Shown one piece after another: positions 12,988 through 34,349 of a stretch of DNA of 64,000 nt. The translations under genes were made by a program, and so were the position numbers. Position 1 is the first letter of the stretch. The number at the start of each line of letters is the position of its first letter. The DNA lies in contig NZ_CP118527.1 in NCBI RefSeq assembly GCF_028885415.1, positions 5,146,001 through 5,210,000 of the forward strand, in the 5' to 3' direction. Under the pieces are notes generated by a model that did no database searches, was not told where the DNA came from, and saw only the letters and a list, made by a program, of their open reading frames with translations. Origin of the DNA: Streptomyces coeruleorubidus (GTDB lineage Bacteria > Actinomycetota > Actinomycetes > Streptomycetales > Streptomycetaceae).

Positions 12988-15900
12988 GTGCCGGGACAAT
13001 CAGGGCCGGGTCGCGCCGAGGGTGAGCTGGATCCGGAGGCCGGGCCGGTGCAGCGGTTCGCCGCCGGGCTGCGTGCGCTGCGCGAGGCCGCGGGCAGGCC
13101 CACCTACCGGGAGATGGCCCGCCGGGCGCGGTACGGGGTGACCACGCTGTCGCAGGCGGCGGCGGGCAAGCAGCTGCCCACCCGCGCGGTGACGCTCGCC
13201 TACGTCAAGGCGTGCGGCGGCGACCCCGCCGAGTGGGAGCGGCGCTGGCGCGAGGCGTCGGACGAACTGGCCGCCGAGACCGCCGCCGAGGACACCGCCC
13301 GGCCGCCCTATCGCGGCCTGACCCGGTTCGAACCGGGTGACGCCGAACTGTTCTTCGGCCGCGACCGGCTCGTGGAGCGGCTCACCGAGCTGAACCGCAA
13401 GCACCGCTTCACCGCCGTCTTCGGCCCCTCCGGCAGCGGCAAGTCGTCGCTGCTGCGGGCGGGCCTGATCCCCCGGCTGCGGGCGGCCGGCGACGATGAC
13501 GTGCCGCCCGCGGCCGTACGGATCCTCACCCCCGGCGCGGACCCGCTGCGCACGCACGCCGAGCGGCTGCAACCCGTACCGGACACCGACGCCGACACCT
13601 GGCTGATCGTCGACCAGTTCGAGGAGCTGTACACCCTCGGCGCCGACCCGGCCGACCGCGACGCCTTCATCGACCGGCTCGTCGCCGCCACCGCCGCCGA
13701 CAGCAGGCTGCGCGTCGTCATCGCGGTGCGGGCCGACTTCCTCGGCCGGTGCGCCGAACACCCCGGGCTCACCGCCGCGTTGCAGGACGCCACGCTGCTC
13801 GCCGGGCCGATGAGCCGGGCGGAACTGCGGGAGGCCATCGTCCGCCCGGCCGCCGCGGCCGGCCTGATCGTCGAACGCGCCCTGACCGACCGCCTCCTGG
13901 ACGAGGTCGAGGACGCCCCCGGCGGACTGCCCCTGATGTCGCACGCCCTGCTGGAGACCTGGCGCCACCGCAGCGGCCGGGCCCTGACCGAGACCGCGTA
14001 CGAGGCGGCAGGCGCACTGCACGGCGCCGTCGTCCGGACGGCCGAGCAGGTGTACGGGGAACTGACTGCGGAGCAAGTTGAGTTGGCCCGCCGTATCCTG
14101 CTGCGTCTCGTTGCGCCAGGCGACGGGAGCGCTGACACCCGCCGCCCCACCGACCACGCGGAACTCGACTTCGGCGACCCCGCCGACACCCGGGTCGTCC
14201 TGGAACGCCTGGCCCGGGCCCGCCTCATCACCTTTGACGACGGCACCGCCGACCTCGCCCACGAGGCCCTCATCACCGCCTGGCCCCGCCTGCGCGCCTG
14301 GATCGACGCGGAACGCGACCGGTTGCGCGTCCACCGCGCGCTCTCCGAGGCGGCCCGCACCTGGCAGGACCTCGGGCAGGAGAACGCCGCGCTCTACGCC
14401 GGCTCCCGGCTGTCGGCCGCCCGCGACGCCTTCCCGTCGGACGGCGCCGCCCCCGGCACCGACGAACTGACCCCGCTGGAACGGCGGTTCCTCACCACCT
14501 CCCTTCGCCGCCGGCAGCGCGCCGTGCTGCTGCGCCGCACGGTCGTGGCCGTACTGGCCGCGCTCGCCCTGCTCGCCACCGGCACCGCCGTCGTCGCCCT
14601 CCAGGCCCGCGAGAGCGCGCAGGCCGAACGGGACGACGCCGTGTTCGGGCAGCTCACCGCCGAGGCCGACCGGGTCCGCGACACCCACGCCGGGCTGGCC
14701 GCCCGGCTCGACGTGGCCGCCTACCGCATGCGCTCCACCCCGGACCTGCGGACCCGGCTCGCCTCGGACGCGGGCCGGGTCCTGGCCACCCGGCTGCCCG
14801 GCCACGACGGGACCGGCAGCTCCGTGGCGTACGCGCCCGACGGCCGGACTCTGGCCGCCGGCGGCCACGACGGCACGGTCCTGCTGTGGGACACCGGCGG
14901 CGGGCCCCTGGGGGAACCGCTGCGGCTCGGGACGGACCGGGTCGGCGCGGTCGCCTTCGCACCGGCGGGCCGCGACCTGCTGGCGGCCACCGGCGAAGGC
15001 GGCGCCATCCGGCTGTGGGACGTACGCGACCGGGAGCACCCCCGCCCCCTCGGCCGGCCGCTGGTGAGCCACGACGAGGAGAACATCGTCTCCGCCGCCT
15101 TCGCCCCCGACGGCCGAGCCCTGGCCACGGCCGGCGACGACGGCACCGTACGCCTGTGGGATCTGACGGACCCGGCCCGCCCCACGCCCCTCGGCAAGCC
15201 CGCCGCGGCCGACGACTCGGAGGACCGCAGCGTCCGCGCGGTCGCGTTCGCCCCGGACGGCAACACCCTGGCGACGGCGGGCTATGACGGCACCGTCCGG
15301 ATGTGGCGGTACGGCGAGGACGACGGGATCGCACCGCTCGGCAAGCCCCTGCGCGCCCATACCGCCCCGGTGTGGACCCTGGCCTTCTCGCCGGACGGCC
15401 GCACGCTGGCCACCGCCGGCTTCGACGAGACCGTACGGCTGTGGGACGCGTCCGACGCCGGCCGGCTCACGTCACTGGGCGAACCGCTGACCGGGCACAC
15501 CGCGCCCGTCATGTCGGTCGCGTTCAGCCCCGACGGGGAGACCCTGGCGAGCGCGGGCGAGGACGACGCGCCGCTGTTGTGGAACGTGGCCAACCCCGCC
15601 TATCCACAGCGGCTCGGGGAGCCGCTGACCGGGCACACGGAGCCCGTGTGGGAGGTCGCCTTCAGCCCCGACGGCCGTACCCTCGCCAGCACCGGCGCCG
15701 ACGGCGGCGTCCTGCTCTGGCACCGGCCACCGACCGTCCTCACGGACTTCACCAACCCGGTGACCGCCGTCGCCTACAGCCCCGACGGCCGCCTGCTCGC
15801 CGCCGCCAGCACCGACGACGGGCTGGTCCGCCTGTGGGACGTACGCCGCCCGGACCGCCCGCGCCGGCTGCCGCGGACCCTCACCCACGAAGACCGGGTG

Positions 15901-16797
15901 CTGGCCGTCGCGTTCGCGCCGGACGGCCGTACGGCGGCCAGCGGCTCCGCGGACGGCACCGTACGCCTGTGGGACGTCTCCACGCCCGACCGCCCCGCGC
16001 CGCTCGGGAAACCCCTGCACGCACACGACGGGGTAGCCGACGCCGTCGCGTTCGCGCCGGACGGCCGCACCCTGGCCACCGGCGGCGAGGACGACACGGT
16101 CCGGCTGTGGGACGTACGGCGACCGGACCGGGCACGGCCGCTCGGCGCACCGCTGCGCGGCCACACGGACGCCGTCACCTCCGTGGCCTTCGCCCGCAGC
16201 GGCCGCCTCCTGGCGAGCGGCGCCGAGGACGCCACGGCCCGCCTGTGGCACGTGGCCGGCGACGGGACGCGGGCCCGGCCCGCGGGCGCCGCCCTCACCG
16301 GACACGACGAGTCGGTCGAAGCGGTGGCCTTCGCCCCGGACGGGAGGACACTTGCGACGGGCAGCGACGACCGTACGGTGCGGCTGTGGGACGTACGGGA
16401 CGTCGAACGGCGGGACCGCGTACGCCCGTTGGGAGAGGAACTGGCCGGACACCGCGCGGCGGTTCGGGCCCTGTCCTTCGCCCCGGACGGCGACACGCTC
16501 GCGACCGGCAGCGGCGACCACACGGTCCGCCTGTGGGACGTGTCCGACCCGGCCCGGGCCGAGCCGTCCGGCCAGGAACTCACCGGCCACCTCGACACCG
16601 TCACCACCGTCGCGTTCAGCCCGCGCGGCGACGCCCTCGCCTCCGCCGGCTACGACCTGACGGCCCGGGTGTGGACGCTGGACGAGGACCGCGCGGCCAA
16701 GTACGTCTGCGAGCACACCGGCGGGATTCTCACCCGGGCCGACTGGGAGGAGCATCTGCCGCAACTCCCCTACAGGGAGGCCTGCGAAGACCGGTAG
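12988..16797 (+). CDS. HTH - STAND NTPase - transmembrane - 14x WD40 regulatory protein
   Basis: 1269-residue multidomain protein. An XRE-like helix-turn-helix (about residues 20-80, with REMARRARYGVTTLSQAAAG) leads into the nSTAND1 NTPase module, which starts at PYRGLTRFEPGDAELFFGRD. It has P-loop GPSGSGKSS (146-154), Walker B LIVDQFEEL and a helical ARC-like region. A strong hydrophobic segment follows at about 513-540 (VVAVLAALALLATGTAVVAL). Then come 14 WD40 repeats (LATGSxDxTVRLWDV type), enough for two seven-blade propellers. The membrane segment would put the propellers outside and the NTPase and HTH inside, so it may be a membrane-tethered signal-transducing regulator. The GTG start follows a GGGGG stretch. 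Confidence 0.9.
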   Translation: MPGQSGPGRAEGELDPEAGPVQRFAAGLRALREAAGRPTYREMARRARYGVTTLSQAAAGKQLPTRAVTLAYVKACGGDPAEWERRWREASDELAAETAAEDTARPPYRGLTRFEPGDAELFFGRDRLVERLTELNRKHRFTAVFGPSGSGKSSLLRAGLIPRLRAAGDDDVPPAAVRILTPGADPLRTHAERLQPVPDTDADTWLIVDQFEELYTLGADPADRDAFIDRLVAATAADSRLRVVIAVRADFLGRCAEHPGLTAALQDATLLAGPMSRAELREAIVRPAAAAGLIVERALTDRLLDEVEDAPGGLPLMSHALLETWRHRSGRALTETAYEAAGALHGAVVRTAEQVYGELTAEQVELARRILLRLVAPGDGSADTRRPTDHAELDFGDPADTRVVLERLARARLITFDDGTADLAHEALITAWPRLRAWIDAERDRLRVHRALSEAARTWQDLGQENAALYAGSRLSAARDAFPSDGAAPGTDELTPLERRFLTTSLRRRQRAVLLRRTVVAVLAALALLATGTAVVALQARESAQAERDDAVFGQLTAEADRVRDTHAGLAARLDVAAYRMRSTPDLRTRLASDAGRVLATRLPGHDGTGSSVAYAPDGRTLAAGGHDGTVLLWDTGGGPLGEPLRLGTDRVGAVAFAPAGRDLLAATGEGGAIRLWDVRDREHPRPLGRPLVSHDEENIVSAAFAPDGRALATAGDDGTVRLWDLTDPARPTPLGKPAAADDSEDRSVRAVAFAPDGNTLATAGYDGTVRMWRYGEDDGIAPLGKPLRAHTAPVWTLAFSPDGRTLATAGFDETVRLWDASDAGRLTSLGEPLTGHTAPVMSVAFSPDGETLASAGEDDAPLLWNVANPAYPQRLGEPLTGHTEPVWEVAFSPDGRTLASTGADGGVLLWHRPPTVLTDFTNPVTAVAYSPDGRLLAAASTDDGLVRLWDVRRPDRPRRLPRTLTHEDRVLAVAFAPDGRTAASGSADGTVRLWDVSTPDRPAPLGKPLHAHDGVADAVAFAPDGRTLATGGEDDTVRLWDVRRPDRARPLGAPLRGHTDAVTSVAFARSGRLLASGAEDATARLWHVAGDGTRARPAGAALTGHDESVEAVAFAPDGRTLATGSDDRTVRLWDVRDVERRDRVRPLGEELAGHRAAVRALSFAPDGDTLATGSGDHTVRLWDVSDPARAEPSGQELTGHLDTVTTVAFSPRGDALASAGYDLTARVWTLDEDRAAKYVCEHTGGILTRADWEEHLPQLPYREACEDR

Positions 16798-20865: not shown

Positions 20866-22920
20866 ATGACCGACTTACCTCGGGACGACTCCGCCACCCG
20901 TGCCCGCTGGCAGACCTGCCTCAGGCTCGCCCGCGAACTCCTCCTCGTCGGGCCGGACGGCACCGACCTCAAACTCCACTATCTGCACACGCTGATAGAC
21001 ACGGGCCGCCTCGGCCCCACCCACCACCCGCGCAAGAAGATCCTCGTCATCGGCGCCGGCATCACCGGCCTCGTCGCCGGCCGGCTGCTCAAGGACGCCG
21101 GACACGACGTCACCGTCCTGGAGGCCAACGCCAGCCGGGTCGGCGGGCGCATCAAGACCTTCCGGGCCACCAAACACGACCAGCCGTTCGACGACCCGGC
21201 CCAGTACGCCGAGGCCGGTGCCATGCGGCTGCCCGACTTCCACCCGCTGGTCCTCGCCCTGGTCGACAAACTCGGGCTCGGCCGCCGCCAGTTCTACAAC
21301 GTGGACGTGGCCCCCGGCACCGGCAGCGGCCCCGACGTCCCCGTGCCCCCGGTGACGTACACCTCGTTCACCGGCCGGACCTGGAGCTACGGCGACGACA
21401 GCCCCGACTTCCGCGAACCCGACAAGCGGGGCAACTCCTGGATCCGCGCCAACCGCACCCAGGTGCGGCGGGCCGACTACGCCGCCGGCCCCGAGCGGAT
21501 CAACGAGGGCTTCCACCTCACCGGCGACGAGGTCCGCGCCCCCGTCGTGAAGATGGTCGACGACGCGCTGGAGAGCGTGCGCGACTACTACTCCGACGTC
21601 GTCGACGGCAAGCGCGTCAACAAGCCCCTCGAGGAGTGGGTCGAGGGCTGGGCGCGGGTGATCCGCGACTTCGACGGCTACTCGATGGGCGGCTTCCTGC
21701 GCGACCACGCCGGACTCAGCGACGAGGCGATCGAGGCCGTCGGCACGCTGGAGAACATGTCCTCGCGGCTGCATCTCTCGTTCTTCCACAGCTTCCTGAG
21801 CCGCAGCGACATCAACCCGGGCGTCCGCTACTGGGAGATACCCGGCGGCAGCTGGCGCCTGCCGCACGCCCTCCACCAGGGCCTGCGCGACGAGGTGCGG
21901 CTCGGCCACCGCATGATCCGCCTGGAGTTCCACGACCCCAGCCGCGACACCGACCCCGAGGGCACCGGCGCGGTCGGACCCGACGGGTGGGGCGTGGCCG
22001 TGCAGACCGTCGCCGAGAACGATCCACAGGCCCCGCCGCGCCTGTGGACGGCCGATCTGGCGATCGTCACCATCCCGTTCTCCGCCCTGCGCTTCGTGGA
22101 GATCGTCCCGTCGATGTCGTACAAGAAGCGCCGCGCGATCATCGAGACCCACTACGACCAGGCCACCAAGGTGCTGCTGGAGTTCAGCCACCGGTGGTGG
22201 GAGTTCACCGAGGACGACTGGCGCGAGGAGCTCGACCGCATCGCACCCGGCCTGTACGAGTACTACCAGCTGGGCGGCGAGCAGGGCACCGGCGAGGCCC
22301 TCTCGCTCGCCGAGGCGGGGGCTGCCCCGACGGGCAGCGGCCTGCTCGGTGCCGCGGTCAAGGACAGCAGCGTCACCGAGGAGATGCGGCAGCTCAACAG
22401 CACCATGCCGCTGCGCGGTCCCGCGCTCCGCCCCGCCACCCACTGCTTCGGAGGCGGCTCGGCCACCGACAACCCCAACAGGTTCATGTACTACCCCTCG
22501 CACCGGGTCGAGGGCAGCACCGGCGGCGTCGTGCTCGCCTCGTACTGCTGGTCCGACGACGCCGCCCGCTGGGACTCCATGCGCGACGCGGAACGCTACG
22601 TCTACGCCCTGCGCAACCTCCAGGCCCTGCACGGCCCCCGCATCGAGGTGTTCTTCACCGGACGCGGCGCCACCAAGAGCTGGGCCCGCGACCCGTACGC
22701 CTTCGGCGAGGCCGCCATCTACACCGCGCACCAGATGACCAGCTTCCACCTGGACGTCTCCCGGCCCGAAGGCCCCGTGCACTTCGCCGGGGAGCACACC
22801 TCCCTCAAGCACGCCTGGATCGAGGGCGCCCTGGAGAGCGCCGTGCGTGCGGCCCTCGCCGTCCACCAGGCCCCGCCGGTCACCACCCCGGGCGCGGACC
22901 GGGAGGGGGACCGCTCATGA
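20866..22920 (+). CDS. Flavin L-amino-acid oxidase, L-glutamate oxidase-like
   Basis: 684-residue FAD flavoprotein expected to oxidise an L-amino acid to the 2-oxo acid, releasing NH3 and H2O2. The dinucleotide fold is [15 protein letters not shown] at 62-76, ending in VLEAN, then GGRIKTF. By recall it aligns closely along its length with Streptomyces sp. X-119-6 L-glutamate oxidase. It keeps equivalents of substrate-site Arg124 (here R121 in AGAMRLP), Arg305 (R301 in SSRLHLSFF), His312 (H308) and Trp653 (W651 in LKHAWIEG). Unlike the secreted enzyme, no export signal is evident. Its stop overlaps the ThDP-enzyme start (ATGA). L-Glu is the leading substrate guess. Confidence 0.88.
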
Positions 22921-24755
22921 CCGCGATCATCCCCGAATGCACAGTCGCCCGCTATCTCGCCCTGCGCCTGGCCGAGTTGGGCATCACCCACCTCTTCGGT
23001 GTCCCCGGCAACCACCTCGGCCCGTTCCTGACCACCCTGCGGGCCGAGGGCGACATCGAGTGGGTCGGCACCCCCACCGAGGGCGGCGCGGGCCAGGCCG
23101 CCGACGCCTACGCCCGCATCCACGGCATCGGCGCGGCCGCCGTCACCTACAGCGTCGGCGCCTTCAACCTGCTCAACGCGTGCGGCGGCGCCTACGTCGA
23201 ACAGGTCCCGCTCGTCGCCGTCAACGCCTCCCCGCCCTACGAGCAGTGGCAGAACTACCGGGCGGTCGGCCTGCTCACCTCGCACATGAGCCCCCGCCCG
23301 GAGAGCAACCTGGACGTCTACCGGCAGGTCACCGTGGACGCGCAGGTCATCTCCAACCCGGGTCTCGCCCCCGGCCAGATCGACGCCGCGCTCACCGCGT
23401 GCCTGTCCGAGCGCCGGCCGGTCTACCTGGAGGTCATGGAGGACCTCTGGGACGAGCCCTGCCCCGAGCCGGAGGCACCGATCGTCCCCCGGGAGCGGCC
23501 GTTCAGCGCGCGCAACCAGCCCATGCTGGACAAGGCCGTGCAGGCGGCCCTCACCCTGGTCGAGGAGCACCCCGGCCCGGACGGCAGGCCCCGGCCGATC
23601 GTCTGGGCCGGCGAGGAGATCGACCGGTTCCGCCTGGGCGGGCAGCTCATCGACCTGGTCGAGGCGACGGGCGTGCCGTTCTGCACCACCGTCGGCGCCA
23701 AGGCCGTCGTCGACGAGGACCTGCCGCAGTTCCACGGCGTCTACAACGGCGGCGCCAGCCACCCGGACGTGCATGCCGTATTCAAGGACTGGGCCACCTG
23801 CCGCATCGGGCTCGGCGCCTGGTCCACGTCGAAGAACCTCGGCGGGGAGCAGTGCGTCGGCGACGACTGGGTGATGGCCGCGCACGGCGGAGTCGGCGTC
23901 GGCACCTCCTACTTCCCCGACGTCCAGCTCACACAGTTGCTGCCCGCACTCCAGGACGCGCTGGTGAAGGCCTACGGCTCGGGGGGCCTGGCCGCCGACT
24001 ACTACGCGGAGGCCTACGCCCACCACGGCTCGCGCGAGGACCGCCCGGCGGGCCTGGAACACCACCGAGCCTCACTGCACAGCAGCCGCTCGCCCCACCG
24101 GCGGGCCGAACGCCTCACCTACGACGCCGTGTTCGACCGGCTCAACCACTTCCTGAACCACGAGACGCGAGAGGACTGGACGGTCGTCTCCGACGCCGCG
24201 TTCTCCCTCATCGGCTCGATGAACCTGTCCCTGCCGGCAGGCGGGTTCCTGTCGCAGGTCAGCTGGCTCTCCATCGGCTGGTCGGTCTGCGCGGCCACCG
24301 GCGCCGCGCTCGCCCCCGAGCGCGGCGACGCCCGCCCGATGGTGTTCGTCGGCGACGGCGCCTTCCAGGAGACCTGCCAGGAACTGTCCACGCACACCAG
24401 GCACGGGCTGCGGTCGGTGGTGTTCGTCATGGACAACGGCCACTTCTACGGCGTCGAGCAGATGCTGGTGCATCCGGCGTACTACGCGGACCAGGACGCG
24501 GCCGACCCGGACTTCTACAACGTCCTCCACCCCTGGCACTACGACCGCCTCGCGGCCGTCTTCGCCGGCAAGCACACCCCGGCGAACGGCGTCAGCGTCG
24601 CGCACACCGCGGAACTCGACGACCTCCTGGACCGCCTCACCGACCCGGCCGACCCGCTGAACGCCGGACCGCTCCTGGTCCGCGTCCGCCTGCACCGCCA
24701 CGACTACCCACGGGCGATGGCGTACCAGGTGAAGAAGTCCTCCAACATCAGGTAA
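22917..24755 (+). CDS. Thiamine-diphosphate enzyme, 2-oxo-acid decarboxylase-like
   Basis: 612-residue ThDP-dependent enzyme. The PYR domain has [12 protein letters not shown] and the cofactor-activating Glu (E55 in [17 protein letters not shown]). The PP domain has [20 protein letters not shown] then [12 protein letters not shown], close to pyruvate/indolepyruvate decarboxylases. However, the His-His motif of that group near residue 113 is not present (GLLTSHMSP instead), so carboligation or oxidation is possible. Translationally coupled to the amino-acid oxidase, it probably acts on the 2-oxo acid that enzyme makes, for example 2-oxoglutarate to a semialdehyde. Its C-terminus (residues about 380-430) has a hydrophilic linker unusual for the family. 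Confidence 0.85.
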
Positions 24756-24922
24756 GTCCCGCTCAGCCGGATGCCCCGAACGGTGTTGGGCACCCTGGCA
24801 CCCTGGCCCCCCCGCGTTCGCTCCGCATCCGGCGCGCACGGATCGTGTCCGTGGTCCGGGAACGCGAGGGCGGGATTCCTCACGCCTCTGAGCGCCCGGT
24901 CCGGCCTGGACGGTCCGATGCC

Positions 24923-24947
24923 CGCACCCATCGCTCCGGTGGGTGCG
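24923..24947. terminator. Candidate hairpin between convergent genes
   Basis: CGCACCCA (24923-24930), a 9-nt loop and TGGGTGCG (24940-24947), between the ThDP gene (ends 24755) and the ComB-like gene (ends 25006). A modest stem. It may terminate either transcript. The rest of 24756-25005 shows no gene. Confidence 0.35.
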
Positions 24948-25005
24948 CGGCGGTGCCGTCCGTCGCCGGATCGGGTGCTGATGCTCTCGCCCTCGACAGG
25001 CGGGG

Positions 25006-25704
25006 TCAGGAAATCGGCGAAGGCGTCGCGCGTGGACGCAGGACCATGAGCGAGCCTTCCAAGGTCGCCACCATGGCGAAGGGGAACCGGTCGACCTCGA
25101 GACAGAGCGCAATGTCATCGGGATGGACTCCTTGACGCACCCCCTCCGCCAGTTCCGCGGCGGCGCGCGACTCGGCGGCGCGGCTGATGAACTCGGCGGC
25201 ATCCGTCCCGGCCTCGGTGGCCCTGCGGGCGATGTACTGAGCACACGCCAGATCTTCATCGGCCTGCCCGTCCTCGCCCGTGACCACGAACGTGACACTG
25301 TCACTCCCGCGCGTCCGCAAGAGCTGGGCCGTTGCCTCCGCCACCACGAAGCCGGCGCACAGCACCAGCGGCGCATCCTTGACCGCGAGGGCGCCGACCG
25401 TCCCTGCCGTGGTCTTCTGCACAACGGTCCGTCCGCCGAGGTCGACAGACCGCAGCAGGCCCGGGGAGTTGACGGTGTCGAACCCGGGCGCGGGCGGACC
25501 GTCCTTGATCGCCACCCAATCCGGGTGGCGAGCCTTGAGCCCCAGGGCTTCGTCCAGCGACTCGGCAAGAACGATCTTCTCCGCCCCCTGGGCAAAGGCC
25601 CAGGCAGCCACGGTGAAAGCACGCATGACGTCGACCACGACCGCCACGGACGGGGTTTCGGCCAGATCAGGTATGCCAAGGAAGCGAGCGTCCATTCCGA
25701 TCAT
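25006..25704 (-). CDS. ComB-like 2-phosphosulfolactate phosphatase family protein
   Basis: 232-residue protein of the ComB family, Mg-dependent phosphatases acting on 2-phosphosulfolactate in coenzyme M and sulfolactate metabolism. Visible family blocks are [48 protein letters not shown] and [14 protein letters not shown]. Streptomyces do not make coenzyme M, so the physiological substrate here is unknown. ATG at 25704, with an alternative at 25695. Neither has a strong Shine-Dalgarno sequence. Convergent with the ThDP gene and divergent from the LysR gene. Confidence 0.8.
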
Positions 25705-25805
25705 GATTCCGCATGCCCGATCCGAAGCATCCTGAAGGTGATGAGCGTCACATCGACGGTCCCGGAACGCAACATCTCCGGCTACGCACCGTTAGGGTGA
25801 GCCGA

Positions 25806-26717
25806 GTGGAGCTCCTGCACCTGCGCTATTTCGTCGCCGTCGCCCAAGAACTGAACTTCTCCACCGCGGCCCGCAAACTGCACATGGCGGCATCCCCGTT
25901 GAGCCGGCGGATCAAGGATCTCGAGAGCGAACTCGGACACCGGCTGTTCGACCGCGACACCCATCATGTGCGGCTCACCCCGGCCGGCAGCGCGCTGCTG
26001 CCGATCGCCCGCGGTGTCCTGGAGCAGGTCGATTCCATCCAGTGGCGGCTGGACGAGACGACCCGGCCGCGGCGGACCACCCTGCTGCTCGGCGTCCCCA
26101 GCGGCATCCATCCGGACCTGCGGGAGCGGATGGACGCCCTCGCCGAGCGGGTCGGCGACCGGTTCGAGATCAAACGCTGGCCGGGTGGCACCGAGCGGCT
26201 GGTCGACGCGGTGTGCGACGGCAGACTGGCGCTCACCCTCGCCCGGCTCCCGGTCGGCGGCGACCCGGCCCTGGAGCAGCTGCCGGTGATGTCGGAGCGG
26301 CTCGGCGCGGTCGTGCCCAGGGACCGGTTCCCGGGGCGGGAGTCGATCTCCTTGGCGGAACTGTCCGGACTAGCCTACGCGGGCTCGCCCACGGCCGTGA
26401 CCAACGCGTATTTCCGCGGTCTCGACCAGCAGCTGGCCGAGCTCGGCATCAGGAAACGGATCGAAATCGGCAGCGCGACTTTCGACGGTGTTTCCGAGAT
26501 AGTCTCCAGTGGTCTGGCGTTCTCCATTTCCATGCTGGATCCGCGAAGCCCCGTGCAGAATTACCGTCTCGACAATGTGACCGTCCTGCCCTTCTCGGAT
26601 TTCCATCCCCGGCTCGAGACCGGTCTGCTGTGGCGCAAGGACCGGGCGCACGGCGGTGACCTGGAGGAAGTCGTGACCGCGGCCCGCGAGGTGTTCGCCG
26701 AGCCGCTCCGCTCCTGA
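25806..26717 (+). CDS. LysR-family transcriptional regulator
   Basis: 303-residue LysR protein. The N-terminal winged HTH is LLHLRYFVAVAQELNFSTAARKLHMAASPLSRRIKDLE (given here as a domain, residues about 3-40), followed by LGHRLFDRDTHHVRLTPAG and a periplasmic-binding-protein-like effector domain (90-295). The GTG at 25806 is preferred because AGGGTGA lies 5 nt upstream. The GTG at 25797 is the alternative. It is followed by a strong terminator, then by the five-gene CoA operon, which it is the obvious candidate to control. The effector is unknown. Confidence 0.9.
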   Translation: MELLHLRYFVAVAQELNFSTAARKLHMAASPLSRRIKDLESELGHRLFDRDTHHVRLTPAGSALLPIARGVLEQVDSIQWRLDETTRPRRTTLLLGVPSGIHPDLRERMDALAERVGDRFEIKRWPGGTERLVDAVCDGRLALTLARLPVGGDPALEQLPVMSERLGAVVPRDRFPGRESISLAELSGLAYAGSPTAVTNAYFRGLDQQLAELGIRKRIEIGSATFDGVSEIVSSGLAFSISMLDPRSPVQNYRLDNVTVLPFSDFHPRLETGLLWRKDRAHGGDLEEVVTAAREVFAEPLRS

Positions 26718-26751
26718 TTCTCCGAAAACCTCTTAAAGACCCCTTGAAGAG

Positions 26752-26782
26752 GCGGTATGACCACTGTGGTCATGCCGCTTTT
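26752..26782 (+). terminator. Rho-independent terminator after the LysR gene
   Basis: GCGGTATGACCAC pairs with GTGGTCATGCCGC (one G.U) across a minimal loop and is followed by TTTT. A smaller CCTCTT/AAGAGG dyad precedes it. It separates the regulator from the downstream CoA operon, which therefore needs its own promoter in 26783-26872. Confidence 0.8.
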
Positions 26783-26872
26783 CGTTATTCGGTCATTCCA
26801 CTCTCCGACCACGCTTGCTAACTTAGTTGCCAGATACACGTACATTGTGAAGCGAGGAGTGAAGGAAAAACG

Positions 26873-28042
26873 ATGACCGACATCGAGGACACCGTCGCCG
26901 GCCCCCTGGAAGGCGTCCGCGTGATCGACCTCTCGACCGTGGTGATGGGCCCCTACGCGGCACAGATCCTCGGCGACCTGGGCGCCGACGTGATCAAGAT
27001 CGAGTCGCCCGCCGACACCGTGCGCGTGGGCCACTACCGCACCACGCCGGGCATGACCCCGCTGAACCTCAACGTCAACCGCAACAAGCGCAGCGTGGCC
27101 CTCAACCTCAAGGAGGAGACGGACCGGGAGCGGGCGCTCAAGCTGATCGACACCGCGGACGTGCTCATCACCAACATGCGGCCGGGCGCACTGCACCGCC
27201 TCGGCCTGTCCCACGACGACATCGCTGCCCGTAACCCGGGCCTCGTCTACGCGCACGCCCAGGGCTTCCGCAGCGACTCGGACCGGGCGGGCAACGCCGC
27301 CTACGACGAGACCGTGCAGGCCGCGTCCGGCCTGGTCGACATCGCCGACCGCGCGCTGGGCGAGCCCGTCTACCTGCCGACCATCATCGGCGACAAGGTC
27401 TCCTCCCTGACCATCGCCTACAGCGTGCTCGCCGCCCTGCTGCACCGGAACAGGACCGGGCAGGGCCAGCTCGTCGAGATCCCGATGACGGACACCCTGA
27501 TCGCCTTCAACCTCGTCGAGCACCTGGCGGGACACACCCACGTGCCCGAGACCGGCTCCACCGGCTTCCCGCTGTCGATGCTGAAGGGCCACAAGGCGGT
27601 GCGCACCAAGGACGGCCTGGCCTGCGTCATCCCCTACAACCCGCGCAACTACCGGGACTTCTTCACCGCCGCCGGACGCCCGGACCTCGCCGAGGACCCG
27701 CGTGTGAACGGGGACGCCATCGACAGCGCCGACCACGAGGACCTGGCCGCGCTCCTGGAGGCCTGCGCCCCGGCGCTGACCACCGAGGAGTGGGCGGAGG
27801 TGTGCGCCAAGCACAGCATCCCGATGGCCCCGGTGCTGGAACTGGACCGCGCCCACGAGGACCCCTACGTCCAGGGCGGCCACCTGCTCGACACCGTCGA
27901 GCACCCGACCGAGGGCACCGTCCGCACCATCGGCATCCCGCTGCGCTTCTCCGCGACGCCCGGCTCGATCCGCCGTCTGGCGCCGGTCGCCGGCCAGGAC
28001 ACCGAGGACGTCCTCGCCGAGCTCGACGCCGCCGCCCGCTGA
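26873..28042 (+). CDS. CaiB/BaiF family (class III) CoA-transferase
   Basis: 389-residue family III CoA-transferase that would load CoA onto a carboxylic acid from an acyl-CoA donor. Hallmarks are LEGVRVIDLSTVVMGPYAAQ at the N-terminus, LGADVIKIESP, NRNKRSVALNLK, and the nucleophilic Asp in the AAYDETVQAASG segment near residue 145, with IIGDKVSSLTIAYSVLAALL after it. The C-terminus has the IPMAPVLELDRAHEDP block. First gene of the operon, with AGGAGTGAAGGAAAAACG before the ATG. The substrate acid is not identifiable from sequence. Confidence 0.9.
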   Translation: MTDIEDTVAGPLEGVRVIDLSTVVMGPYAAQILGDLGADVIKIESPADTVRVGHYRTTPGMTPLNLNVNRNKRSVALNLKEETDRERALKLIDTADVLITNMRPGALHRLGLSHDDIAARNPGLVYAHAQGFRSDSDRAGNAAYDETVQAASGLVDIADRALGEPVYLPTIIGDKVSSLTIAYSVLAALLHRNRTGQGQLVEIPMTDTLIAFNLVEHLAGHTHVPETGSTGFPLSMLKGHKAVRTKDGLACVIPYNPRNYRDFFTAAGRPDLAEDPRVNGDAIDSADHEDLAALLEACAPALTTEEWAEVCAKHSIPMAPVLELDRAHEDPYVQGGHLLDTVEHPTEGTVRTIGIPLRFSATPGSIRRLAPVAGQDTEDVLAELDAAAR

Positions 28043-28061
28043 CCGTCACAGGAGGACAGCC

Positions 28062-28835
28062 ATGAGCACTCCCACAACTCCCGTACGCACGGAACGGATC
28101 GGCTCCACCCTGCTGATCACCCTCGACCGCCCCGAGGCCCGCAACGCCGTGAACGCCGCGGTCGCCGCCGGCCTGGCCGCCGCCCTGGACGAACTGGAGG
28201 CCGATCCCGAGCTGCGGGTCGGCGTCCTGACCGGCGAGGGCGGCACGTTCAGCGCCGGCATGGACCTCAAGGCCGCGCTGCGCGGCGAGTCGCCCGAGGT
28301 CGAAGGCCGCGGCTTCGGCGGCCTGACCGAGGCCGAACCGGTCAAGCCCCTGATCGCCGCCGTGGAGGGCCATGCCATGGGCGGCGGATTCGAACTGGCC
28401 CTGGCCTGCGACCTGATCGTCGCGGCCGAGGACGCCCGGTTCGGGCTGCCCGAGGTCAAGCGCGGGCTGATCGCAGCGGGCGGCGGCGTGATCCGGCTGC
28501 CCAAGCGCGTCCCGCACCACCTGGCCATGGAACTGCTGCTGACCGGCGAGCCCGTCGACGGCCGCCGCGCCGGCGAACTGGGCCTGGCGGGCCGGGTCAC
28601 CGCCACCGGCCAGGCCGTCACCGAGGCGCTCCGCCTCGCCGAACGGCTCGCGGAGAACGCCCCGCTGGCGCTGGCGGCCGTCAAGCGCGTCGTCCGCGCC
28701 GCCGACGGTGCGCCCGACGCCGACGCCTTCGCCTTCCAGCGCGGGGAGATGAAGACCCTGATGGCCTCCGCCGACGTACGCGAGGGCATGACCGCCTTCG
28801 CCGAGCGCCGCCCCGCGCGGTGGACGGGACGGTGA
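28062..28835 (+). CDS. Enoyl-CoA hydratase/isomerase (crotonase) family protein
   Basis: 257-residue crotonase-fold protein. The oxyanion-hole blocks are GGTFSAGMDLKA and HAMGGGFELALACDLIVA. The catalytic-region Glu is present in FGLPEVKRGL (Glu equivalent to hydratase Glu144/164 positions needs alignment). The start RPEARNAVNAAV is standard. It could hydrate, isomerise or hydrolyse the CoA ester made by the upstream transferase. It lies 19 bp after that gene with an AGGAGG site, and 6 bp before the next. Confidence 0.9.
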   Translation: MSTPTTPVRTERIGSTLLITLDRPEARNAVNAAVAAGLAAALDELEADPELRVGVLTGEGGTFSAGMDLKAALRGESPEVEGRGFGGLTEAEPVKPLIAAVEGHAMGGGFELALACDLIVAAEDARFGLPEVKRGLIAAGGGVIRLPKRVPHHLAMELLLTGEPVDGRRAGELGLAGRVTATGQAVTEALRLAERLAENAPLALAAVKRVVRAADGAPDADAFAFQRGEMKTLMASADVREGMTAFAERRPARWTGR

Positions 28836-28841
28836 GGCGCC

Positions 28842-29588
28842 ATGCAGACCGAGGACGTACGACAGCACCTCACCACCCCGCTCACCAGCCCGGCGTACCC
28901 GCCGACGGTCCCGCGGTTCACCGACCGCGAGTACCTCAACGTCGTCTACCGCACCGACCCCGAGGCGCTGCGGGCCGTCGTCCCCGAACCGCTGCGGATC
29001 GGTGAACCCCTGGTCCGGTTCGAGGTCATGAAGATGGGCGACGTCAGCGGATACGGCCCCTACACGGAGGCCGGCCAGGCGATCCCCGTCGGCTTCGAGG
29101 GCGAGCACGGCGAGTACCTGCACGCCATGTACCTCGACAACTTCCCGGCGACCGCCTCCGGCCGCGAGGTCTCCGCCTACCCGAAGGTGCTCGGCTCCCC
29201 GTCGCTCACCGTCGACTCCGGCGCGCTCGTCGGCACCCTCGACCACGGCAGCCTGCGGGTCGCCACCGCGACGATGGGCTACAAGCACCACGAGCTGGAC
29301 CGGCGCGAGGCCCGGGCACAGATCACCGTGCCGACCTTCATGCTCAAGACCGTTCCCGGCTACGACGGTTCGCCGCGGGTGCAGGAACTCGTCCGCACGC
29401 GCATCACCGACGTCACCGTCAAGGAGGCGTGGACCGGCCCGGCCCGGCTCCAGCTGTTCCAGCACGTGCTCGCCCCGCTGGCCGACCTGCCGGTGCTTCA
29501 GGTCGTCTCCGCCAGTCACATCCTCACCGACCTGACGCTGTCCGGCGCCGAGCCGGTCCACGACTACCTGAAGGGAGCCGCGTCATGA
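28842..29588 (+). CDS. Acetoacetate decarboxylase family protein
   Basis: 248-residue ADC-fold protein. The Schiff-base Lys of Clostridium acetobutylicum ADC (Lys115) is matched exactly by K115 in GREVSAYPKVLGSP, and the conserved Glu/Arg region FEVMKMGDVSGYGPY is present. The neighbouring Lys116 of the clostridial enzyme is Val here. ADC-superfamily members can decarboxylate 3-oxo acids or perform aldol/dehydration chemistry, so the reaction is open. In this operon it could remove CO2 from a 3-oxo acid produced by the next gene's dehydrogenase. Stop overlaps the next ATG. Confidence 0.85.
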   Translation: MQTEDVRQHLTTPLTSPAYPPTVPRFTDREYLNVVYRTDPEALRAVVPEPLRIGEPLVRFEVMKMGDVSGYGPYTEAGQAIPVGFEGEHGEYLHAMYLDNFPATASGREVSAYPKVLGSPSLTVDSGALVGTLDHGSLRVATATMGYKHHELDRREARAQITVPTFMLKTVPGYDGSPRVQELVRTRITDVTVKEAWTGPARLQLFQHVLAPLADLPVLQVVSASHILTDLTLSGAEPVHDYLKGAAS

Positions 29589-30535
29589 CCCGCACCTTCC
29601 GTACGGCCGCGGTGATCGGCGCCGGGACCATCGGACTGTCCTGGACGGCGCTGTTCGCCGCGCACGGCCTGACGGTCGAGGTGAGCGACCCGCGACCGGA
29701 CCTCGCCGAAGCCGTGGACGAGGCCCTGGCGCGGTCCGCCCCGCACCTGGCCGCCCGCGGCCTGGACGTGACGGGCCTCGCCGGCCGGGTGCACATCGCC
29801 ACCGACGTCACCGAGGCGGTCCGGGACGCGGACGTCGTACAGGAGAACGGCCCCGAGCGCGTCGAGTTCAAGCAGGACCTGTTCGCCGGCCTGGCCCGCG
29901 AAGCACCCGATCACGCGCTGCTGCTCAGCTCCTCGTCGGCCATCCCGTCGACCGAGTTCACCAAGGAGCTGGCGGACGGTGCCGCCGCCCGCGTCCTGAT
30001 CGGCCACCCCTTCAACCCGCCGCACCTGGTCCCGCTCGTCGAGGTCGTGCCCGGCGAGCGCACCGGCGAGGACGCCGTACAGGCCGCCGTCGACTTCTAC
30101 ACCTCGGTCGGCCGAACCCCGGTCGTCGAGCGCAAGGAGATCCCCGGCTTCGTCGGGAACCGGCTGCAGAACGCCCTCAGCCGCGAGGCCGTGTACCTCG
30201 TCGAGCTGGGCGTGGTGACGCCCGAGGAGCTCGACACGGTGATGACCAACTCGCTGGGGCTGCGCTGGGCCACGGTCGGGCCGTTCCTCGGCTCGCACCT
30301 GGGCGGCGGCCCCGGCGGCTACCGGCACATGGCCGAGCACATCGGCGCCTCGATGAAGCAGATGTGGGCGGACCTCGGCACCCCGTCGCACAACGACGAA
30401 CAACAGCAACGGCTCATCGCAGCCGTGGAACAGGCCTACGGCTCCTCCACGTACCCGGAACTCACCGAGACGCGCGACCGCAGGCAACTCGCCGTCCTGT
30501 CCGCCCTGGACGGCGCCGACAAGGAGGAGAACTGA
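29585..30535 (+). CDS. 3-hydroxyacyl-CoA / L-carnitine / L-gulonate-type dehydrogenase
   Basis: 316-residue NAD-dependent dehydrogenase. The Rossmann motif is VIGAGTIGLSW, followed by VQENGPERVEFKQDLFA, LLSSSSAIPST and the catalytic-His region IGHPFNPPHLVPLVEVVPG. The C-terminal dimerisation domain starts at GFVGNRLQNALSREA. The VQENGPE and HPFNPPHLVPLVE wording is closer to carnitine dehydrogenase and lambda-crystallin/gulonate dehydrogenase than to FadB. A free short-chain 3-hydroxy acid is therefore as likely a substrate as a CoA ester. ATGA overlap with the ADC-like gene. Confidence 0.87.
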   Translation: MTRTFRTAAVIGAGTIGLSWTALFAAHGLTVEVSDPRPDLAEAVDEALARSAPHLAARGLDVTGLAGRVHIATDVTEAVRDADVVQENGPERVEFKQDLFAGLAREAPDHALLLSSSSAIPSTEFTKELADGAAARVLIGHPFNPPHLVPLVEVVPGERTGEDAVQAAVDFYTSVGRTPVVERKEIPGFVGNRLQNALSREAVYLVELGVVTPEELDTVMTNSLGLRWATVGPFLGSHLGGGPGGYRHMAEHIGASMKQMWADLGTPSHNDEQQQRLIAAVEQAYGSSTYPELTETRDRRQLAVLSALDGADKEEN

Positions 30536-30536
30536 G

Positions 30537-31739
30537 ATGACCACCACCATGCAGCCGCTGGAAGACCAGCTCACCGCGGACTTCTACGCCTACGAGACGC
30601 TGCTGCCGGACGAGGAGCGGGGGATCCTCCTCAAGGCCCGCGCCCTCATGCGCGACGAGATCAAGCCGCTGGTCAACGGCAACTGGGCCAAGGGCGAGTT
30701 CCCCCGGGAGCTCATCGGCATCTTCCGCGACAGCGGCCTGGCCGGCCTGCCCTACGAGGGCTACGGCGAGCACCGGCCCGCCGTCAGCAACCTGCTCAGC
30801 GGCATGCTCGCGATGGAACTGAGCCGCACCGACGCCTCGGTGGCCACGTTCTTCGGCGTCCACAACGGCCTCGCGATGTACTCCGTCCACTCCGGCGGGG
30901 ACCAGGAGCAGCGCGACCGCTGGCTGCCCCGGATGGCCGCGATGGACAAGATCGGCGCCTTCGCCATGACCGAGCCGCTCGGCGGCTCCGACGTCGCGGG
31001 TGGCATGCGCACCACCGCCCGGCGCGAGGGCGACACCTGGGTCCTGAACGGCGCCAAGAAGTGGATCGGCAACGCGACCTTCGCCGACTACGTCGTGGTG
31101 TGGGCGCGGGACGTCGACGACAACCACGTCAAGGGCTTCGTCGTCGAGAAGGGCACCCCCGGCTTCGAACCGGCGAAGATCGAGGGCAAGACCGCCTTCC
31201 GGATCGTCGAGAACGCCGAGATCACCCTGACCGACGTCCGGGTACCGGAGGCGAACCGCCTGCAGAACATCAACTCCTTCCGTGATGTCGCCGAGATCCT
31301 GCGCGCCACCCGCGGCGGGGTGGCCTGGCAGGCGCTGGGCGTCATGGCCGGCGCCTACGAACTGGCCCTCGACTACGCCCGGCAGCGCAGTCAGTTCGGC
31401 CGTCCGATCGGCGGTTTCCAGCTTGTGCAGGACCTGCTGGTCAAGAGCCTGGGCGACATCACCGCGTCGTGGGGCATGCTGGTGCAGCTCGCCCGGCTGC
31501 AGGACGCCGGCGTCTTCCGCGACGAACACTCCGCCCTGGCCAAGGCGTTCGTCACCGCGCGGATGCGGGAGGTCGTGGCCCGGAGCCGGGAGATCTTCGG
31601 CGGCAACGGAATCCTCCTGGACCACGACATCGCCAGGTTCTTCGCCGACGCCGAGGCGATCTACTCCTTCGAGGGCACCCGCGAGATGAACACCCTGATC
31701 GTCGGCAAGGCGATCACGGGCCAGAGCGCCTTCGTGTGA
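30537..31739 (+). CDS. Acyl-CoA dehydrogenase family protein
   Basis: 400-residue FAD enzyme of the acyl-CoA dehydrogenase family. Visible blocks are FAMTEPLGGSDVAGGMRTTARREGD (middle-domain FAD contact, residues about 141-165), WIGNATFADYVVVWA, ARQRSQFGRPIGGFQL, and the C-terminal EIFGGNGILLDHDIARFFADAEAIYSFEGT region. The catalytic base is expected in the EGT-containing segment, as in glutaryl-CoA or isobutyryl-type members. Last gene of the CoA operon, 1 bp after the dehydrogenase stop. It resembles CaiA/glutaryl-CoA dehydrogenase in general build. Confidence 0.9.
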   Translation: MTTTMQPLEDQLTADFYAYETLLPDEERGILLKARALMRDEIKPLVNGNWAKGEFPRELIGIFRDSGLAGLPYEGYGEHRPAVSNLLSGMLAMELSRTDASVATFFGVHNGLAMYSVHSGGDQEQRDRWLPRMAAMDKIGAFAMTEPLGGSDVAGGMRTTARREGDTWVLNGAKKWIGNATFADYVVVWARDVDDNHVKGFVVEKGTPGFEPAKIEGKTAFRIVENAEITLTDVRVPEANRLQNINSFRDVAEILRATRGGVAWQALGVMAGAYELALDYARQRSQFGRPIGGFQLVQDLLVKSLGDITASWGMLVQLARLQDAGVFRDEHSALAKAFVTARMREVVARSREIFGGNGILLDHDIARFFADAEAIYSFEGTREMNTLIVGKAITGQSAFV

Positions 31740-32348: not shown

Positions 32349-34349
32349 TCACCGCGCCGGGCGCTGCCACCACGCGGCCGTCGCGTCCCGCAGGGTGTTG
32401 GTGCCGCAGTGCACCTCGCCCAGGCCGAGGTGGTACGTGTACCAGTCGTCGATGTACGACACCTTCAGGCCGACCCGCTGGTAGGCGGCGGTGACGGCCT
32501 GCGTGAAGATGTCCTTGCCGCCGATGACGGGCCCCCACTGGCGCGGGGCGAGGTAGCGGTCGCGCGCCAGGAGCACGCCGTTGACCGCTCCGGGAACGTA
32601 CGCGCTGGTCATCACCGTCGCCCGAGCCGCCGGAGTCGCCGGAGCCGCCGCACGCGAGCCGGCCGGGTTCTCGGCGAGCCACTTCTGCTGGCCGTGGTCC
32701 CCGAGGCTGTCCACCAGGTCGGAGCCGGCGCCCATGCGCGTCAGACGCGGCACGGGAATCTCCTGCCCCTCGGCGGTCAGAGCCTCCGAGTCACGGGTGT
32801 ACAGCGCGGGCACCCGCACGATCTCCCCGTCGGTGACCCCCGTCTCGCGCTTGAGGATCTCCAGGTTGGCCGCGATGCGCCGCGCCGCCATCTCGTTGTC
32901 GGCCACCAGGTGACGGGTGGCGAGCGCCTGGTCGATGGTCTCCTTGGGCGCCGGACTGTCCGTCCGGCCCGGGACGGAGAACATCTTCGTCTTGCCGTGG
33001 CCGTCGCGCTTGGCGTCGCGCAGCAGCCGCAGCCCCGCCTGCGGGTCGGCGACGCCGATGCGCCAGCCGCGCGGAGTGTCGGCGGGCAGGAACTGCACGA
33101 ACTCGTCGACGTGCCCCACGCCCAGCCAGGAGGTGTCCAGCAGCAGCGGGTCCTGCAACCCCTGCGACTTCAGCAGCGTCCGCACCACCTTCGACGGGCG
33201 CGCCCCGCTGTCCTTGCGCTCGCCCATGATGATCCGCCCGGCCGGGAACGAGCGCCCGCCGTGCGCGTAGGGCGGGATGGTCTCCAGGTTCCCCATGGAG
33301 TTGAGCGACCAGTCGTCGGGCTCGGCCCGGTCGGTCACCTGCACGACACCGACGTCCCGGCCGCGCACCCTCTCGAACAGCTCCCGGCCCGCGTCCCGGT
33401 CCGGCTGGGCGGAACGCAGCATCACGCGCATCACCTGCCGCTGACCGCCCGGCCCGGTCATGCTGACGTAGGCCGGTTCGACGAAGTCCTGGGCCCAGGG
33501 GTCGGCGTACTTCTCGAAGGTGATCAGCGGCTTGGTGACACCGGCCTTCTTGACCTCCTTCCCGAGTTCGGCGACGAACTTCTGCTGAAGACGGCTGTAC
33601 TCGCCCTCACCCTGGACCTCGGTCACCATCACCTGCTGGGTGTTCTGAAGGTGATGGTGGGTCAGGAGCGGCGCGACGCGCAGGGTCACGGCGTCGGAGG
33701 TGGACTTCTGCCCGGACGTCACCGTCAGCCGGACCACCGCACGGCCGTCCCACTTCGCGCTGTCCCGGACGACATCGGTGCCCTCGACACCGAACTCCAC
33801 ACCGGAACGCAGCTCGGCGGCGGTCAGCCGGGTCTTGGACGTGACCAGGACCCACTTCCCGGAACGCTTGACGAAGAGACGAGCGTGCTTGCCTCCCGTG
33901 GTGACCTTCAGACTGCCCTGGGCGTCCTTGCGCAGACCCGGCATGGGGACGGAACGGACCCGGGCGAGGTCGGCGGCGTCCGCGCTGCCGTTGACCTTCA
34001 TGTCGGAGCCGTCGTTGCACGCGGCCAGCTTGGCGTCGGACAGCGGCTTGCCACCCGGCCCGGTCACCGGACACCGCTTGGTGTCGTCGTCGATGTTGGG
34101 CAGATAGACGGCTCCACGCCCGACGGACCAGCTGTCCTCACCCTTCTTGTCGCTGCCACCGGTGACATCGACCCGTCCGTCGCGGTTCACATCCGCCCGC
34201 AGATCGGCACGAATGCCCGACTCGGCGGCGGAGGCGGAGCCGGCCGGCCCGGCCAGCACGGACCCCGCGGCGGCGAGAGCCAGGACGACCGACCCGGCCG
34301 GGTACAGGCGCGAAGGTCTACGTGTACGTATACGCGTACGTGAACGCAC
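32349..34349 (-). CDS. Secreted protein-arginine deiminase (PAD family)
   Basis: 666-residue exported enzyme expected to convert peptidyl-arginine to citrulline, Ca2+-dependent in vertebrate homologues. The basic signal region ends near SASA-A (about residue 42). A dockerin/EF-hand-like segment DVNRDGRVDV follows. The C-terminal PAD domain keeps all four catalytic residues of PAD4: Asp350 (D288 in DPWAQDFVE), His471 and Asp473 (H413 and D415 in GVGHVDEFVQF) and Cys645 (C648 in EVHCGTN). The GTG at 34349 has AGAGGAA upstream; an ATG at 34412 gives a longer form. It neighbours a transposase relic. Substrate proteins are unknown. Confidence 0.9.
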   Translation of the reverse strand: MRSRTRIRTRRPSRLYPAGSVVLALAAAGSVLAGPAGSASAAESGIRADLRADVNRDGRVDVTGGSDKKGEDSWSVGRGAVYLPNIDDDTKRCPVTGPGGKPLSDAKLAACNDGSDMKVNGSADAADLARVRSVPMPGLRKDAQGSLKVTTGGKHARLFVKRSGKWVLVTSKTRLTAAELRSGVEFGVEGTDVVRDSAKWDGRAVVRLTVTSGQKSTSDAVTLRVAPLLTHHHLQNTQQVMVTEVQGEGEYSRLQQKFVAELGKEVKKAGVTKPLITFEKYADPWAQDFVEPAYVSMTGPGGQRQVMRVMLRSAQPDRDAGRELFERVRGRDVGVVQVTDRAEPDDWSLNSMGNLETIPPYAHGGRSFPAGRIIMGERKDSGARPSKVVRTLLKSQGLQDPLLLDTSWLGVGHVDEFVQFLPADTPRGWRIGVADPQAGLRLLRDAKRDGHGKTKMFSVPGRTDSPAPKETIDQALATRHLVADNEMAARRIAANLEILKRETGVTDGEIVRVPALYTRDSEALTAEGQEIPVPRLTRMGAGSDLVDSLGDHGQQKWLAENPAGSRAAAPATPAARATVMTSAYVPGAVNGVLLARDRYLAPRQWGPVIGGKDIFTQAVTAAYQRVGLKVSYIDDWYTYHLGLGEVHCGTNTLRDATAAWWQRPAR
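34319..34342. other. 24-bp perfect alternating pyrimidine-purine tract
   Basis: TACGTG-TACGTA-TACGCG-TACGTG alternates pyrimidine and purine without a break, a sequence class able to adopt Z-DNA. It lies in codons 3-10 of the deiminase signal region, where it encodes RTRIRTR. Confidence 0.6.

Follow-up and report, generated by a model that had tools for sequence, protein, structure and literature searches.

The L-glutamate oxidase (LGOX) of Streptomyces is in wide use in glutamate biosensors. Its Arg305 is reportedly crucial in substrate recognition (so the title of a 2012 paper by Utsumi is said to state), and we take R124, H312, Y562, W564 and W653 to be further substrate-pocket positions of the solved enzyme. 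The titles and abstract openings of the listed papers on LGOX deal with sensors, assays and catalysis; among them we found none on the role of the enzyme in its own organism. Open-licence literature, as represented by titles and abstract openings, gave no description of LGOX paired with a ThDP enzyme (absence in print is unproven by such a search), and the portions searched, including those of PMC13026155, PMC9060813 and PMC11694665, make no mention of a ThDP partner. To that extent the literature bears out a sequence-only reading of the locus described here, which knew of no pathway built from this pair. For the ThDP enzyme, the described systems used for comparison are the pyruvate, branched-chain and indolepyruvate decarboxylases (PDB 1zpd, 2vbf and 1ovm).

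The window is the whole stretch of 64,000 nucleotides analysed, taken from a Streptomyces coeruleorubidus genome of 9.4 Mb in a single contig. The LGOX-like gene and the ThDP enzyme gene lie in it with the following features.

20866..22920, + strand: L-glutamate oxidase-like flavoenzyme (LGOX, P0001, 684 aa); intact ORF, assigned by Pfam and homology; no Tat-like motif
21052..21069, + strand: FAD-binding GxGxxG motif of LGOX, residues 63-68, from the sequence
21766..21768, + strand: LGOX R301, aligned equivalent of Arg305 (substrate recognition)
22917..22920, + strand: ATGA stop/start overlap of the LGOX and ThDP enzyme genes, from the sequence
22917..24755, + strand: ThDP enzyme, pyruvate/2-oxo-acid decarboxylase family (P0002, 612 aa); intact ORF, assigned by profiles and fold
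23280..23285, + strand: Ser122-His123 of the ThDP enzyme, aligned with the His-His pair of decarboxylases
23832..23834, + strand: Lys306 of the ThDP enzyme, beside the predicted substrate pocket by alignment; candidate carboxylate binder
24351..24437, + strand: ThDP/Mg GDG...N motif of the ThDP enzyme, residues 479-507, from the sequence
24738..25780, no strand: roughly 1 kb unmatched in the best relative (L068), where relatives have pixA, by DNA comparison
25006-25647, - strand: 2-phosphosulpholactate phosphatase-like gene within the unmatched stretch

Both reading frames are intact and share the ATGA overlap at 22917-22920, as the sequence-only reading had reported. The FAD and ThDP motifs that it called intact were found at LGOX residues 63-68 and ThDP enzyme residues 479-507, and the Pfam domains agree (Amino_oxidase, 5.2e-48, for LGOX; TPP_enzyme_N, _M and _C for the ThDP enzyme). 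G63, G65 and G68 of LGOX are invariant in an alignment of 12 sequences; G479, D480, G481 and N507 of the ThDP enzyme are invariant in an alignment of 18. Scanning for promoters and terminators gave no signal exceeding that of shuffled sequences.

Relationship to solved L-glutamate oxidases

The closest solved structures to the window LGOX are Streptomyces L-glutamate oxidases (E 1.9e-282), and the alignment to 7e0c scores 942 bits across residues 17-674, near full length. Position 305 of the X-119-6-type precursor aligns with R301. The six residues R121, R301, H308, Y560, W562 and W651 of the window protein recur unchanged in all of the paired LGOX proteins compared (49 of 49), and the Arg/His/Trp pocket positions named in the sequence-only reading agree with those of the solved enzymes. 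The L-glutamate-oxidase-like identity given in the sequence-only reading is upheld by this comparison, and the similarity argues strongly for assigning the window protein as a close L-glutamate oxidase. It resembles the X-119-6 enzyme (PDB 2e1m, 8jpw, 7e0c) in family over nearly the full length and in the six pocket residues, but it falls in a different clade (clade A, see below) and the linker and C-terminus differ. Its identity to six aligned clade-B members is 61-66%.

One clade-B protein (locus L027, 701 aa) shows 13 differences from the X-119-6 chain 7e0c over 686 aligned positions (98% identity). One of the 13 is at position 305, which is Glu in 7e0c and Arg in the two other solved chains aligned. 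The L027 gene overlaps a ThDP enzyme gene by ATGA, as in the window. Since this copy is 98% identical, the well-known LGOX probably belongs to a ThDP-paired system.

Paired LGOX proteins form a clade of their own (50 of 50, support 1.0), within which clade A (33 proteins) is one group with support 0.84 and clade B (17 proteins) another with 0.90. The ThDP enzyme tree shows the same split: clade A (40) has support 1.0, clade B (19) has 0.92, and L120 stands next to A. Loci were sorted by identity to the window ThDP enzyme, and those above 70% were counted as clade A (39 of 57 loci, leaving 18 others).

Solo Streptomyces LGOX-like proteins (46-49% identity by tblastn) were examined in 17 fetched loci out of 56 solo matches. 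All 17 carry the same six pocket residues, but 15 have a twin-arginine N-terminus, [S/T]RRx[F/L] and then an Ala-rich stretch, and they lie away from a ThDP gene and outside the paired clade. Of the remaining two, one has a related DRRAF and the other (L058) was unassigned. Their placement, N-termini and tree position led us to reject the solo proteins as members of the module. A motif search (not a dedicated predictor) found a Tat-like motif in the first 60 residues of none of 49 paired LGOX proteins; the most hydrophobic 15-residue window within their first 45 residues averages at most 0.81, a value computed for the paired proteins only. The LGOX-ThDP module is probably cytosolic, judging from these N-termini. 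The window genome also contains a fragment that matches the C-terminal part of LGOX at 55% identity and is interrupted by stop codons within the match (L036, G000:C1:8644003-8644392).

Conservation of the gene pair

ThDP enzyme loci were collected from 57 places in genome contigs (54 Streptomyces, two Embleya and one Actinokineospora), a set from which the window's own genome is possibly absent. LGOX was called directly upstream of the ThDP gene in 47 of the 57, and 45 of these 47 show the 4-bp overlap. The other two (L095 and L111) have LGOX upstream without a called overlap, and their ThDP start is perhaps called too late. Sorting the 57 loci by at least two common flanking genes gives 31 groups (largest 21), and sorting them by one common gene gives 14 (largest 42). 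Chance adjacency of the two genes was ruled out, because the pair recurs across many genomes with differing flanking genes.

The second survey covered 199 genomes of the genus Streptomyces; it is not independent of the 57 loci, because some contigs come from the same genomes. At a threshold of E 1e-40 the ThDP enzyme was matched in 19 genomes, 14 of them close (window genome included) and five distant (31-38% identity), and no LGOX lies within the fetched flank in those five. The reverse search gave 69 LGOX-like matches in 67 genomes. LGOX of the paired type (at least 64% identity) occurs in 13 genomes and all 13 carry the ThDP gene; the 14th ThDP genome (G141) has an LGOX remnant. Weaker matches may be missed in these counts, because five to six candidates were scored per genome. 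In a class-wide search of 394 genomes, the ThDP enzyme was found in four, all Streptomyces: the window genome, G440 and G551 have LGOX alongside, and G094 has the distant type.

The sequence-only reading had proposed a neighbourhood search and would have given up the pair if the genes were not found together in other genomes; the pairing in 47 of 57 loci across many genomes sustains it. We conclude that LGOX and the ThDP enzyme form a genuine conserved two-enzyme module which, as far as we have searched, is apparently undescribed. The genes flanking it in the window (MFS transporter, LysR, and CoA-transferase/hydratase/acyl-CoA dehydrogenase genes) were rejected as parts of the module, because they are found in only a minority of loci and the pair also stands in many other settings.

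Other genes of the window are recorded here for completeness. At 25806-31739 (+) a LysR gene is followed by genes for CoA-transferase III, enoyl-CoA hydratase, an acetoacetate decarboxylase-like protein, 3-hydroxyacyl-CoA dehydrogenase and acyl-CoA dehydrogenase, a probable catabolic cluster common to some close kin. A 1249-aa nSTAND1 NTPase with WD40 repeats is encoded at 13048-16797 (+), and at 32349-34259 (-) a 636-aa protein whose protein-arginine deiminase domain (PF03068, E 3.7e-116) is complete.

Loss of LGOX

Ten loci depart from the intact pair. In four (L077, L086, L102 and L116) an in-frame LGOX remnant stands upstream of an intact ThDP gene, with the start, the end and the ThDP overlap kept; these are internal in-frame deletions whose junctions are unlike among all four. 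LGOX is split over two frames in L094, and both genes are decayed in L124. No adjacent LGOX was found in L088, L099, L113 and L120, where ThDP is intact; in L120 another amine oxidase stands beside it. The coupling proposed in the sequence-only reading therefore stands as conserved pairing and fails as a strict rule: it is not obligatory, because 8 of the 57 loci have an intact ThDP gene without an intact adjacent LGOX. The ThDP enzyme in these loci must work without LGOX or serve another purpose.

The dN/dS ratio was computed for chosen pairs, seven of them intact and 13 involving a locus without intact LGOX, and ranged over 0.16-0.29 for LGOX, 0.22-0.54 for ThDP and 0.02-0.37 for PixA. For ThDP it was 0.25-0.54 in the 13 comparisons with LGOX-lacking loci, still under 1, vs 0.22-0.44 in the intact pairs. 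These observations argue that the function of the ThDP enzyme is not strictly tied to LGOX.

Partner genes

PixA (PF12306, three proteins tested) was called directly downstream of ThDP in 36 of 39 clade-A loci and in none of the 18 others; as called, it is short in three of the 36 (L071, L094 and L101). Among the 199 Streptomyces genomes PF12306 (E 1e-10) was found in seven, which are the seven clade-A genomes besides the window's, and always at the operon. A search of the whole window genome for the family gave no matches. We considered whether PixA had been missed or frame-shifted in the window and rejected this after tblastn with seven PixA proteins (best E 0.31) and DNA comparison with kin. 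The window operon has lost PixA, and other DNA of about 1 kb is in its place.

Seven of the 57 loci, all among the 18 outside clade A, have a DyP peroxidase gene (one protein tested) upstream of LGOX at a distance of 5-16 bp. The same holds for both plasmids opened, out of ten Streptomyces plasmids matched. In five of the 18 a second amine oxidase adjoins ThDP. The unit is larger than the sequence-only reading saw, with PixA in clade A and, in some of the other loci, DyP or a second amine oxidase. A ferritin-like gene occurs near the module in three loci, with PF12902 tested in two and the third recognized by similarity (L104:4948-6033 and L121:4926-6020 in clade-B Streptomyces, L113:11880-12968 in Actinokineospora); we take these proteins to be VioB-like.

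The ThDP enzyme

By profile and fold the enzyme is a member of the pyruvate/2-oxo-acid decarboxylase family. The profile for pyruvate and other 2-oxo-acid decarboxylases scores 229 bits vs 87 bits for the acetolactate synthase profile listed; the NCBIfam indolepyruvate decarboxylase equivalog cut-off is not reached (178.7 bits vs 946), and the Foldseek hits, at 22-26% identity, add no more than a confirmation of the pyruvate decarboxylase family. Three TPP domains, the cofactor Glu55 and the GDG...N motif are present. Loops 109-130 and 446-456 are modelled by AlphaFold with low confidence, so the residue roles below are read from the sequence alignment alone.

The enzyme shares fold, domain order, Glu55, GDG...N and E514 with 1zpd, 2vbf and 1ovm. 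It differs from them, at 22-26% identity, in Lys306 and in having Ser or Thr where the His-His pair begins, and most homologues have Asn32-His33 where the three have Asp-Tyr. The first His is Ser in 56 and Thr in three of 59 ThDP homologues, and the second is kept in all 59. The His-His motif reported as lacking is thus half lost: the first His is replaced (Ser122), but the second (His123) is kept. At position 32, the place of the catalytic Asp, 46 of the 59 have Asn and 12 have Asp; L095, whose start is probably miscalled, has Arg. His33 is present in 57 of 59, with Leu in both Embleya loci. E514, which we take to be the equivalent of PDC Glu473, is kept in 58 of 58 homologues reaching that position.

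Of the 59 homologues, 58 have Lys306, which presumably adjoins the site of Tyr290 of the Zymomonas enzyme and would fit a dicarboxylic substrate. The exception is L120, which has no LGOX and the other amine oxidase adjoining. Lys306 does not simply track LGOX, because of the eight loci with intact ThDP and no intact LGOX all seven others keep it. A distant ThDP decarboxylase (about 36% identical) in L033 and L034 has the His-His pair intact and no LGOX nearby; its gene is downstream of a common set of six genes.

Possible pathway

With moderate confidence, we lean towards a translationally coupled module that would turn cytosolic glutamate into 2-oxoglutarate and H2O2 and then carry out ThDP chemistry on 2-oxoglutarate. 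The first step is well supported by homology: LGOX would oxidize L-glutamate via the imine to 2-oxoglutarate, NH3 and H2O2. In the second, decarboxylation of 2-oxoglutarate by the ThDP enzyme may give a ThDP-bound C4 acyl-anion/enamine, which could leave as succinic semialdehyde or be ligated to an acceptor. In a third step, accessory genes might handle H2O2 or the product, DyP in part of clade B and PixA in clade A. The window locus would keep the first two steps, with PixA lost. We infer both the hand-over of 2-oxoglutarate from LGOX to the ThDP enzyme and the ThDP product.

Release of the aldehyde without any carboligation would amount to plain catabolism, from glutamate through 2-oxoglutarate to succinic semialdehyde by non-oxidative decarboxylation, as an Ehrlich-like or GABA-shunt bypass. 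This account is plausible, and we would put it somewhat short of an even chance: it fits the preference for decarboxylase over acetolactate synthase profiles and the retention of E514 and H123, but the first catalytic His is replaced by Ser or Thr in every homologue and the catalytic Asp by Asn in most. Carboligation is a serious option because the acid-base residues are altered: Ser122 replaces the first His, and position 32 is Asn or, in fewer homologues, Asp, with His33 next to it. We know of no 2-oxoglutarate-using carboligase in the pyruvate decarboxylase family. That the ThDP enzyme is a carboligase of this family, fed by a cytosolic glutamate oxidase and using 2-oxoglutarate as C4 acyl donor, is offered as a tentative proposal, on balance rather unlikely.

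Co-regulation alone, in which the ThDP enzyme would use another 2-oxo acid from general metabolism, seems unlikely to us. Intact ThDP at the eight loci with an LGOX remnant or no adjacent LGOX, and beside a different amine oxidase in L120, would suit it, but the start/stop overlap, called in 45 of the 47 loci where LGOX is upstream, and the ThDP gene in all 13 genomes with paired-type LGOX count against it. More doubtful still is that LGOX serves mainly as an H2O2 generator in stress or antagonism, the ThDP enzyme only clearing the keto-acid product: part of clade B has a directly linked DyP peroxidase, and PixA-family proteins of other bacteria are tied to stationary phase and host interaction (PMC9060813), but paired LGOX has no Tat-like signal (vs 15 of 17 solo proteins), internal H2O2 would serve antagonism poorly, and ThDP outlives LGOX in several genomes.

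Returning to the coupled module, the ThDP enzyme to which the LGOX gene is tied in many genomes has a non-canonical active site, and this tie provides a directly testable partner for the role of LGOX. The module points to an undescribed pathway around a biosensor-type glutamate oxidase. If the carboligase proposal is true, the operon would make a novel glutamate-derived metabolite, with PixA, DyP or the second amine oxidase as lineage-specific additions.
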